From Nesterenkonia sandarakina (GTDB lineage: Bacteria; Actinomycetota; Actinomycetes; Actinomycetales; Micrococcaceae), in the NCBI RefSeq assembly GCF_013410215.1, contig NZ_JACCFQ010000002.1, positions 1 to 64,000 on the forward strand: a stretch of 64,000 nucleotides of DNA. The letters are read 5' to 3'. A model generated the notes under the pieces. The model was given only the letters and a program-made list of their open reading frames with translations, was not told the origin of the DNA and ran no database searches. A program made the translations under genes and the position numbers. Below, one piece after another: positions 44,752 to 47,687 of the stretch; the stretch's first letter is position 1, and the number at the start of each line of letters is the position of its first letter.

Positions 44752-45272
44752 CGTTCAAAAACACAATGTGCGCACAATGGGAGTAACAGCGGCCCCCACT
44801 GACGAAGGCTGAGCCCGCAAGGAGGTAGGGCTATTTCCTGTTCGAGCGCACTCTCGTGGGGCTCAGACCGTAGAACCTCGAAGACTTGGTCGAAGGGTTC
44901 ACATTCCGTCTGTCGTTCTCCACGGTGTTGGCGAGAACCTCTGTCCTGGAACTCCACAGTCATTGCACCGTACGGCGGACTAATAGGGCCCACGGTGCTT
45001 TCGCATCATGTCTGATGATGAGGTGAGCCTCCTTGCGGCTTATAACCCCGGCGTGACTACACCAAGAGCGTCTGACTAGTCGCTTGGTGCACATAGGCTC
45101 CATTAGAGGCAGTTGGTTCTGTCGTTGAACGGGGATATCCCTGAGGTATCCAGCGGGAACTTATGTCCGTACCCCCGAGTAATGTCAGCTTATGTTTGCC
45201 CCACCTAACTCATTGCACACACTCCCGCATCCTTTCTACGACCGCGAGCTCACGATGACTGATATAGCAGCG
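44752..45272. other. 520-bp gap without a gene
   Basis: No supported frame. Contains a small dyad (TGTGCGCACA, 44767-44776) and a member of the palindrome family at 44812-44832 (AGCCCGCAAG... GGGCT). Confidence 0.4.
44812..44832 (+). repeat. Palindrome family, short site R7
   Basis: AGCCCGCAAG with a GGGCT partner arm; shares CCCGCAAG with sites R3 and R4. Lies 60 bases after the deacetylase gene. Confidence 0.4.
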
Positions 45273-45545
45273 TTAGCGATCGCCCTTGAGGTCACCCCAC
45301 TGGAGGTCTTGAAGTCTCTCCATCGTTCTGGAGATTAGACACTCGACATCCACTTGAAGCACTGAGGCGATGGAGAACAGGTGGGAGACCGGTATGTCAC
45401 GTTTCCCGTTGAGATACCGGTGGACGGTGGAGTCCGCCAGTCCAGAAGCGACTGCGACGTCCTTCATCGTCATCTGACGAGCGGCTCGTTCGGCGCGGAG
45501 TTGCGCCGCTAGAGCGGACGCAAATTCTGATGCTCGATTATCCAT
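45273..45545 (-). CDS. XRE family HTH repressor (phage-type)
   Basis: 90 residues with one XRE helix-turn-helix (MTMKDVAVASGLADSTVHRYLNGKRDIPV) and a short tail. On the minus strand a -10-like TACAAT ends six bases before the ATG, so the message is probably leaderless. Divergent from another HTH gene across a 93-bp spacer with repeated ACTGTCC motifs, like a phage immunity switch. Confidence 0.8.
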   Translation of the reverse strand: MDNRASEFASALAAQLRAERAARQMTMKDVAVASGLADSTVHRYLNGKRDIPVSHLFSIASVLQVDVECLISRTMERLQDLQWGDLKGDR

Positions 45546-45577
45546 TCATTCATTGTATACCCCCTTCGGACATCAGA

Positions 45578-45647
45578 ACTGTCCAAATGGGCATACTTCG
45601 CCGTTGCAACTGTCCGTTCGAGCAATTAATGTATCCATATGGACAGA
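45578..45647. promoter_or_regulatory. Control region with three ACTGTCC-type sites and leaderless promoter
   Basis: ACTGTCC occurs at 45578-45584 and 45609-45615, and in inverted form (TCTGTCC) at 45641-45647. The plus-strand promoter is TTGCAA (45604-45609), 17-bp spacer, TAATGT (45627-45632), six bases from the ATG at 45639, so its transcript is probably leaderless. The three sites overlap or flank both starts, as operators of a repressor pair would. Confidence 0.65.
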
Positions 45648-45872
45648 TCCAGACTGGTTTCGCATCGCATCCGAGATGCACTACTCAACGCAAATCGAAC
45701 CCAGGAATGGCTGTCCATGAAAACAGGAATAAGCCATAGGACACTATGCCGCAAAATGAGTACACGGACTGATTTTACAGTCACGGAAGTATGGAAAATA
45801 TCAACTGCTTTAAATCTAGGATTGACTACTTTTTTTGAGGCGACAGGTGATGAGAGGCACGGAAATTTGTGA
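45639..45872 (+). CDS. Second HTH regulator (Cro/repressor-like)
   Basis: 77 residues with an XRE-like helix-turn-helix (RTQEWLSMKTGISHRTLCRKMS) and a C-terminal helix. Preceded by a well-spaced promoter and translated from a probable leaderless mRNA. First gene of an operon with holin and amidase. GC content is low compared with the surroundings, indicating foreign origin. Confidence 0.7.
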   Translation: MDRSRLVSHRIRDALLNANRTQEWLSMKTGISHRTLCRKMSTRTDFTVTEVWKISTALNLGLTTFFEATGDERHGNL

Positions 45873-45878
45873 ACTAGC

Positions 45879-46100
45879 ATGAGAAAAATTCCAGACGCCA
45901 AAATAAGGATAATAATTTACCATGTTGTGGCCGCCGCACTATTCGTGGCACTTGTTACCGATTCAATTACGGCACAGCAGGTTAACGAGTATCTTTATGT
46001 TTTGACTCTAATACTTGGTATTGGTGGAGTTGAAGTGGCTGCAAGAACTGCCAAGTTGAAAACAAATAAAAAAGAGGATTTTGAGGATAAAAATGGTTAA
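45879..46100 (+). CDS. Phage holin-like small membrane protein
   Basis: 73 residues with two hydrophobic segments (IIIYHVVAAALFVALVTDSI and YLYVLTLILGIGGVEVAA) and a lysine-rich C-terminal tail, as in small phage holins. Begins 6 bp after the HTH gene and overlaps the amidase gene by 8 bp. Its place just before an endolysin is the main evidence. Low GC. Confidence 0.7.
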   Translation: MRKIPDAKIRIIIYHVVAAALFVALVTDSITAQQVNEYLYVLTLILGIGGVEVAARTAKLKTNKKEDFEDKNG

Positions 46101-47223
46101 CATTATTAGTCGTGAAGAGTGGGGCGCTACCCAGGTCGATGGGAATGGAAGTCGACAGCCTTCGAACCTCGTCAGGGTTCTCCACCACTCGGCTGGGCCG
46201 ACCCCTTCAACGGGAAACAGCCTGTCTGCCGACATCGCCGTCGTCCAGAACCTTGAGGTTATTGGGCAAAACCGGTTCGAGCGTGGGATTTCATATACCT
46301 TCATTGTGACCCCCGCTGGACGAGTCTTCGAAGGTCACTCGATTGGTCGGGTCGGCACTCACACACTGGGCCAGAACTCTACCGGCGCCGGTATCTGCAT
46401 TCCCGGCGATTACACCTCGCAGGACATCTCGACCGCCGCTGAAAATGCGCTGATCGAACTGCTCCAGGAGGGTGTGGACAGAGGCTGGTGGACTAGCTCA
46501 TCCATCAGTGGTGGACATCGGGACTACGTCGCAGGGGAATGCCCAGGAGACATCCTGTACTCCCGGATCGATGAGATCAATGCTCGCGCGCAGGGGGGAT
46601 CACCCGACCCCGGCGACCCGGATGATGACAACGGTGGTGGCGTCACCCCGGGGCCGTTCACCGGTTTTATCCGTGCCACCGCCGATGGTGATCTCCGTGT
46701 AGGACCCTCTTCCAGCAGCAGCTTCGTACGGACTGTCCTTGAGGGCCAGATCATGCTTGCCGCAGAAGGAGAGGCAGAGTGGTGGACTCGAGTCGGCGAT
46801 TATTGGTTCCCCAACCGCCGGGTGCAGTCCAGCGGTGGCGTGGTTGCTCGCGGACTTCTGCACGGACAGTGGCCAGACCGAGACATGCGTGTCGTCGGAG
46901 AGATCGGCACCGAAGCTGACTTCGCTTGGCGGGAACTACTCGCGCAGGTGGGCTTCAACACGGGCAACGCATACCTGGACCGCCACGCCTGGCTGGGTTC
47001 ACGAGGGTACTCCGGAGCGCACACACAGCGCCTCCAGCAGTTCCTCCGGGATCGGATCGATCCCAACGACGGCCTGCCCTTCTACCGAAACGCAGCGGGT
47101 ACAGGTCCTGGTGAAGTGGACAACTCCAGGGGTCCGCGCACAAATCAGGGAGAGATCCGTTTCCTGAACTGGCAGCGAGAGTTCTTCGACAACGTTGAAT
47201 ACTACTCACACTATTCTTCGTAA
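46093..47223 (+). CDS. Phage-type N-acetylmuramoyl-L-alanine amidase (endolysin)
   Basis: 376 residues from the ATG at 46093 with GAGGAT upstream; an in-frame TTG at 46081 is less likely. The N-terminal PGRP/amidase_2 domain has zinc ligands in VRVLHHSAG, GGHRDY and ECPGD, and cleaves peptidoglycan stem peptides from the glycan. An acidic Gly/Pro/Asp linker (about 160-185) leads to an SH3-like wall-binding module (FIRATADGDLRVGPSSSSSFV ... WWTRVGDYWF) and a C-terminal helical module. No signal peptide, so export needs the holin. Followed by a strong terminator. Confidence 0.88.
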   Translation: MVNIISREEWGATQVDGNGSRQPSNLVRVLHHSAGPTPSTGNSLSADIAVVQNLEVIGQNRFERGISYTFIVTPAGRVFEGHSIGRVGTHTLGQNSTGAGICIPGDYTSQDISTAAENALIELLQEGVDRGWWTSSSISGGHRDYVAGECPGDILYSRIDEINARAQGGSPDPGDPDDDNGGGVTPGPFTGFIRATADGDLRVGPSSSSSFVRTVLEGQIMLAAEGEAEWWTRVGDYWFPNRRVQSSGGVVARGLLHGQWPDRDMRVVGEIGTEADFAWRELLAQVGFNTGNAYLDRHAWLGSRGYSGAHTQRLQQFLRDRIDPNDGLPFYRNAAGTGPGEVDNSRGPRTNQGEIRFLNWQREFFDNVEYYSHYSS

Positions 47224-47256
47224 ATCGAATAATAGTGAGGCTGCATAAATAAATCT

Positions 47257-47297
47257 TGGTGGCCCAGTACGTGAAACTTGCACCTACTGGGCCACCA
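47257..47297 (+). terminator. Terminator after the lysis cassette
   Basis: Perfect 13-bp inverted repeat (47257-47269 and 47285-47297, arm TGGTGGCCCAGTA), 15-base loop, 33 bases after the amidase stop. Confidence 0.85.
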
Positions 47298-47687
47298 GGT
47301 GTCTTTTCGCTTTGGATACTGAAACCACACTTTGATTATTAAAGGCCTCCCAGAGCATTCGTCCGGTAAGGCCCCAGCCCTTGTCCAGATGCCCCGGTGT
47401 CGCTGCTGTCAGCTCGCTAGCCTTGACCCCTTCGGCACGCCATCCGACTAGGACATCGTCTTTGCTCTCAAATCGGGAGTAACCCCTAAATCGGTGGTCG
47501 CGAGACGAGTGTCGCCGAGCGTAAGGGAGTGCCGGGGAAGCAATCTGGTAGAGGACTACTAGGCCTAAGTGACCAGTTAGTTGTCACAGCGAAATATTTC
47601 CGTCGACAAGTGAGCTGAGTTACTCTGAACGAGTCGCGGTCGAGGTCCTCGAACGCGATCAAACCATTGTGACGAGGAGTCCCTCTG
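47298..47687. other. Upstream region of the CHRD-like gene
   Basis: Nearly 400 bases without a gene. TTGTC (47581-47585), the palindrome GAAATATTTC (47591-47600) and GACAA (47605-47609) form a nested dyad about 80 bases before the next start codon, a possible operator. Confidence 0.4.

Follow-up and report, generated by a model that had tools for sequence, protein, structure and literature searches.

Can a phage immunity switch and a phage lysis cassette be kept together on a plasmid when the phage itself is gone, and if so, is the resulting unit a device or a scar? This question is raised by four genes in a 64,000-nucleotide window (the whole stretch of DNA that was analysed). An earlier note on this DNA had read them as a lysis module with its own repressor switch and no phage, and had offered two alternatives, a stand-alone lysis device or a domesticated prophage scar. 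The data presented below cannot choose outright between the two, but on balance point to a scar, possibly one that still functions.

The module and its plasmid

The 64-kb window is the start of contig C2 (103,098 bp), one of the two contigs of a 3.02-Mb Nesterenkonia genome (Micrococcaceae), and comparisons with the plasmid took in all 103 kb. Because an open reading frame spans its ends, C2 in all likelihood is a circular plasmid. Conjugation equipment (a MobA-type relaxase and a TraG/TraD-like coupling protein) and ParA are encoded on it, and a megablast search of PLSDB with 25 kb of the plasmid returned zero matches. The four-gene module lies at 45273-47223, in less than 2 kb, with all open reading frames intact. 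Its features are as follows:

45273..45545, minus strand: HTH1, CI-like repressor, 90 aa, XRE/HTH_3 (Pfam HTH_3, 2e-10; phrog_4583 'transcriptional repressor', 1.6e-10)
45546..45638, no strand: divergent operator/promoter spacer between HTH1 and HTH2, 93 bp, 45% GC
45552..45578, minus strand: candidate leftward promoter TTCTGA-15-TACAAT, a weak match (8/12 consensus), 6 nt to the HTH1 ATG
45580..45593, no strand: putative operator O3, TGTCCAAATGGGCA, 1 mismatch to TGTCC-N4-GGACA, adjoining the -35 region of the leftward promoter
45604..45630, plus strand: candidate rightward promoter TTGCAA-15-ATTAAT, a weak match (8/12 consensus), 8 nt to the HTH2 ATG
45611..45624, no strand: putative operator O2, TGTCCGTTCGAGCA, 2 mismatches, between the -35 and -10 of the candidate rightward promoter
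45632..45645, no strand: putative operator O1, TATCCATATGGACA, 1 mismatch, with the HTH2 start codon inside
45639..45872, plus strand: HTH2, Cro-like regulator, 77 aa, 44.0% GC (phrog_4583, 4e-9)
45879..46100, plus strand: holin, class II-like, 73 aa, 37.8% GC (phrog_6116, 1.6e-7; phrog_565 holin)
46093..47223, plus strand: endolysin, 376 aa (Pfam Amidase_2, N-terminal, 7.9e-10; phrog_1493 endolysin, 1e-24)
~47255..47299, plus strand: terminator-like 15-bp hairpin, -32.5 kcal/mol by folding energy, then GGTGTCTTTT; not called by the terminator scan

Two other loci on the plasmid were recorded. A SIR2-HerA anti-phage defence pair was found at C2 75260-78414 (L016:11260-14414; PADLOC 1.5e-137 and 1.9e-252). 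At C2 84990-86722 (L017:990-2722) a UmuD-like gene (phrog_811, 4.5e-43) is followed by a long open reading frame resembling a Y-family polymerase, and the two are possibly a plasmid-borne mutagenic SOS polymerase pair.

Regulators and operators of the switch

The divergent pair of HTH genes described in the earlier note was recovered at 45273-45545 (minus strand) and 45639-45872 (plus strand), with the same 93-bp spacer. The three ACTGTCC-type sites reported in the spacer are real, and are half-sites of three TGTCC-N4-GGACA palindromes. Not one of 20,000 shuffled spacers reached three such palindromes, and nowhere else on the 103-kb plasmid do three fall within 93 bp. The two leaderless promoters that had been proposed do exist as candidates, but each matches the consensus at only 8 of 12 positions, and a stricter scan found neither. 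Leaderless mRNAs for HTH1 and HTH2 are possible, because the candidate promoters end 6 and 8 nt, respectively, before the start codons.

The best matches of HTH1 (8.7e-12) and HTH2 (3.7e-5) in the genus are adjacent, divergent genes on a single contig, G001:C48. The repressor there is 37% identical to HTH1 and the Cro-like gene 28-32% identical to HTH2, and their spacer is likewise 93 bp long with three TGTCC-N4-GGACA operators, one of which lies across the Cro start codon. The pair belongs to a prophage whose further genes were assigned from sequence and gene order as integrase, lysis, tail, capsid, portal, terminase-like and early genes, with only some of these roles profile-tested; the prophage is present in IMG/VR as a virus (L099). 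HTH1 also shows 42-44% identity to proteins of Arthrobacter phages, namely the annotated repressors in Maja and ArV2 and an HTH protein in Hestia, and all three phages have the same divergent layout with an integrase nearby.

With a profile of HTH2, 39 of the 395 family genomes searched were found to encode related Cro-like genes. At the 11 best-resolved of these loci a divergent HTH gene was called in 10, and the gene after Cro was an excisionase-like or other small early gene, had no TM segment, and was never a holin. The immunity cassettes of temperate Micrococcaceae phages (Maja, vB_ArS-ArV2, Hestia and the G001:C48 prophage) resemble the module in their small divergent CI-like and Cro-like HTH genes, but differ from it in that their Cro leads excisionase-like or early genes with a full phage beyond, whereas the Cro of the module leads a holin and an endolysin.

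As in a CI/Cro-type switch, the module regulators are homologous to a phage repressor and to Cro and are divergent, and several palindromic operators in their shared spacer overlap the (weakly matched) promoters. The Cro-side promoter of such a switch reads into early genes (excisionase, replication), and in the module a holin and an amidase were found there instead. The likeness to an immunity region that had been proposed was upheld by the agreement of the operators and the divergent pair with the prophage and with temperate Arthrobacter phages. Judged by its sequence, the module switch is a genuine temperate-phage immunity region.

The 14-mer of O1 is found unchanged in the spacer of another immunity region in the family (L072:1319). 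The spacers at L072, L079, L081, L098 and L102-L104, examined by eye, showed an operator core like CCATATGG or CCATACGG, often spanning the Cro start codon, and it is possible that related Micrococcaceae phages share a family-wide operator code. A small open reading frame antisense to the end of HTH1 (45198-45338, plus strand), which reads ...MTDIAALAIALEVTPLEVLKSLHRSGD, resembles the tail of an XRE protein and had no PHROG match.

The lysis genes and their relatives

PHROG and Pfam matches agreed with the earlier assignment of the genes directly after HTH2 as a holin and an amidase. HTH2 and the holin gene are separated by 6 bp, the holin and endolysin genes overlap by 8 bp, and a GAGG lies six bases 5' of the endolysin ATG. 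The holin has two hydrophobic (TM) segments and a charged C-terminus. The amidase had been described as three-part: the N-terminal domain was matched in Pfam, but the SH3-like middle and the C-terminal third are suggested only by conservation with prophage endolysins, and structure prediction for the endolysin, from a shallow alignment, gave a pLDDT of 33. The catalytic-type residues H30, Y67, H141 and C149 (375-aa numbering) are invariant in comparison with the prophage endolysins. A frameshift in the amidase, which had been raised as a concern, was not found, and no catalytic residue has been lost. As in a holin-endolysin cassette, a TM holin is placed beside a wall hydrolase whose catalytic residues are intact, and the best reading is that the module would be structurally capable of lysis when derepressed.

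The strong terminator that was thought to end the rightward transcript is present as the 15-bp hairpin, but its T-run begins several bases past the stem, which is why the terminator scan passed it over. A 99-aa stop-to-stop frame right after the module (47287-47583, minus strand) overlaps the hairpin and is coding-like; no relatives of it were found.

The endolysin is 36-42% identical to Nesterenkonia prophage endolysins of genome G026 and, in two copies, of genome G011; more distant relatives occur in prophages of G016 and G007. All of these relatives adjoin tail genes. The holin is 38% identical to that of a prophage lysis cassette in another genome of the genus (G022:C41). The prophage lysis cassettes of these five genomes are like the module in having a homologous Amidase_2 endolysin and holin, but they lie in a late operon after tail genes in the order endolysin-holin, whereas the module pair is ordered holin-endolysin and is placed under the immunity promoter. 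The two best order-level endolysin matches (G423 and G401) were in remnant or phage settings, with the endolysin before the holin, and a match on an Actinoalloteichus plasmid was to a phage-plasmid with capsid and tail genes. Viral contigs searched with the endolysin and holin as queries yielded no relatives. On these comparisons, the close relatives of the endolysin and holin are limited to prophage lysis cassettes.

The endolysin-holin cassette of G423 (L064:8799-10992) has a serine-recombinase-like gene close by, and within 20 kb no tail genes were recognised; the cassette can be read as another lysis-only prophage remnant in the order, one without a CI/Cro switch.

A possible mechanism and its triggers

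The Cro promoter of the module is placed so that it would read into lysis genes in place of the early operon of a phage. While the unit is resident, HTH1 would occupy all three TGTCC-N4-GGACA operators and thereby silence HTH2, the holin and the amidase; of the three sites, two lie across either the rightward promoter or the start codon of HTH2. If HTH1 were lost, titrated or inactivated by an antirepressor, then HTH2, holin and endolysin would be made; the holin would open the membrane, the amidase would cut the wall, and the cell would lyse without releasing particles.

SOS/RecA-inducible control was considered as the trigger and was not supported. HTH1, at 90 aa, has an HTH only, with no S24/LexA-type cleavage domain in Pfam, and no SOS box was found near the module promoters, where the top candidate had 2 mismatches in 8. 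Because HTH1 appears to consist of a DNA-binding domain alone and its surroundings hold no SOS box, lambda-like direct induction through RecA, and with it direct SOS control of the module, is unlikely, and the earlier suggestion to look for an effect of DNA damage on its transcription is weak. Likelier triggers than RecA are an antirepressor, a homoimmune phage that titrates the repressor on infection, or dilution of the repressor.

Such triggers could also serve defence. HTH1 might confer superinfection immunity by repressing incoming phages with the same operators, and a phage antirepressor or operator titration would then free the holin and endolysin and kill the cell before virions form. 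Defective-prophage repressors can confer homoimmunity, the operators of the module are near-identical to those of the genus prophage, and the SIR2-HerA defence pair is on the same plasmid. A cryptic prophage with phage-resistance effects has been described and provides a precedent (PMC6356513). However, most abortive systems act faster than lysis driven by a holin, and repeated co-occurrence of the module with defence genes could not be shown; this explanation appears very unlikely.

Other phage genes on the plasmid and the unit in other genomes

When 297 proteins predicted in the prophage loci of the genus, flanks included, were compared with the plasmid, only the repressor, Cro and endolysins gave matches, all inside the module. 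Among approximately 40 plasmid proteins scanned against PHROGs there was no credible structural or packaging gene; weak matches to terminase-small-subunit and portal PHROGs were rejected, the proteins being a MerR-like HTH protein and a Nudix protein. As the earlier note had it, no structural, packaging or integrase gene was found near the module; a resolvase lies about 31 kb away. The structural and packaging genes that a functional prophage or phage-plasmid would carry were not found on this element in these searches. A second resident prophage acting as a helper was also rejected, with zero matches genome-wide to terminase phrog_2 (one terminase family) and only one endolysin-type match in the genome.

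Only chance-level short repeats, and no att repeats, were found flanking the module, and its borders hold no recognisable truncated phage gene. Stop-to-stop frames in the left flank (44752-45272) had no convincing match in genus prophages, PHROGs, genus genomes or plasmids, and the right flank (47224-47687) had none in genus genomes, plasmids, PHROGs or the 297-protein comparison.

A search of related genomes for the same unit without phage genes, as proposed earlier, found relatives of each part inside full prophages and the four-gene unit nowhere else: it was absent from 30 genus genomes and from 395 family genomes (endolysin, holin and Cro searches). In the open-access literature no description was found of a plasmid CI/Cro switch wired directly to a holin and endolysin.

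These data bear on whether the unit is a domesticated stand-alone device, in which the plasmid or host keeps a CI/Cro-controlled holin and endolysin to lyse some cells or adjust the wall, with the release of DNA, proteins or vesicles from the lysed fraction as the proposed benefit. The four intact genes, the tight operon, the full operator set and the end hairpin are consistent with this, as is the lack of any other phage gene on the plasmid, and precedents exist in a Listeria CI/Cro locus (PMC8235301) and the E. coli DLP12 lysis module (PMC7918800). A domesticated locus would, however, be conserved across relatives without phage genes, and this unit was found only on this plasmid, so there is no conservation to back selection. 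No bacteriocin or cargo gene was recognised alongside the module, and a holin-endolysin pair for which no inducer is known is a liability. A domesticated device is unlikely, though far from negligible. It is quite unlikely that the conjugative plasmid itself has converted the immunity switch and the holin-endolysin pair into an autonomous device for suicide or release, such as one that kills the host upon infection by a phage with the same operators.

Composition and origin

The GC content is 57% in HTH1, 44% in HTH2, 38% in the holin gene and 60% in the endolysin gene, and averages 60% (s.d. 3.5) in plasmid genes. The low GC that the earlier note saw in the first genes is found in HTH2 and the holin gene, but not in HTH1, nor in the amidase. 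The breaks in composition at gene borders imply recombination. Since the GC of HTH2 and the holin gene is far below that of the endolysin and plasmid genes, these two genes probably have a common source that is not that of the endolysin.

A single internal deletion of a genus-type prophage was rejected as the sole origin of the module, for it would give the order endolysin-holin, and the composition breaks also argue against it; its origin requires that phages recombined with one another, or that the source was a phage not yet sampled. One such phage would be an undescribed phage or satellite in which repressor/Cro, holin and endolysin natively follow one another, and which has lost its remainder or is a satellite dependent on another's packaging. 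The AT-rich HTH2 and holin genes, unlike their neighbours, suggest joint travel, and the gene order is unlike that of genus prophages. Nevertheless, this arrangement was absent from viral contigs scanned with endolysin, repressor and holin queries and from named phages, and no integrase, primase or packaging gene accompanies the module, which makes a native unit of this kind highly improbable.

Because each part is of phage origin, the unit is phage-derived, and the earlier reading of an immunity switch and lysis module with no phage was strengthened by the operator match to the prophage and phages and by the lack of other phage genes on the plasmid. The preferred explanation, with a probability of roughly 0.6, is that the unit is an intact, mosaic remnant of one or more temperate actinophages, consisting of switch, holin and endolysin. 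We infer an origin by loss or recombination, and not one in which a function for the host or plasmid was selected. Against a remnant stands the lack of an att site, integrase or truncated phage gene at the borders, and the intact, tightly coupled reading frames fit selection as well as they fit youth.

Parallels and significance

In Listeria, a stand-alone CI/Cro switch drives the metzincin/TIMP wall effectors mtz-tim, and this locus is chromosomal, conserved across Listeria and experimentally shown (PMC8235301). As in the module, two XRE genes drive a pair of wall-acting genes, with no phage around; the Listeria effectors, however, are a metzincin and a TIMP-like lipoprotein and not a holin and endolysin. 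E. coli K-12 keeps the DLP12 lysis module (PMC7918800). Here too the holin and endolysin of a defective prophage are kept by the host, but DLP12 differs in being chromosomal, within a defective prophage, and in having spannins. The control of DLP12 lysis is also unlike a CI/Cro pair set directly upstream.

If the module works, it would be a minimal four-gene lysis switch of less than 2 kb in a little-studied actinobacterium, would make it possible to ask directly if phage lysis genes serve the plasmids that keep them, and would provide a compact operator-repressor pair (TGTCC-N4-GGACA) for the Micrococcaceae. If it is a remnant only, it shows how far a prophage can shrink and yet keep an intact lysis circuit.

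Tail and lysis genes were also found on a separate contig of a second Nesterenkonia, G011:C2 (48,067 bp; L010, L015 and L018). That contig is possibly an extrachromosomal phage or phage-plasmid, and a related prophage (L011) is present in the chromosome of G011.
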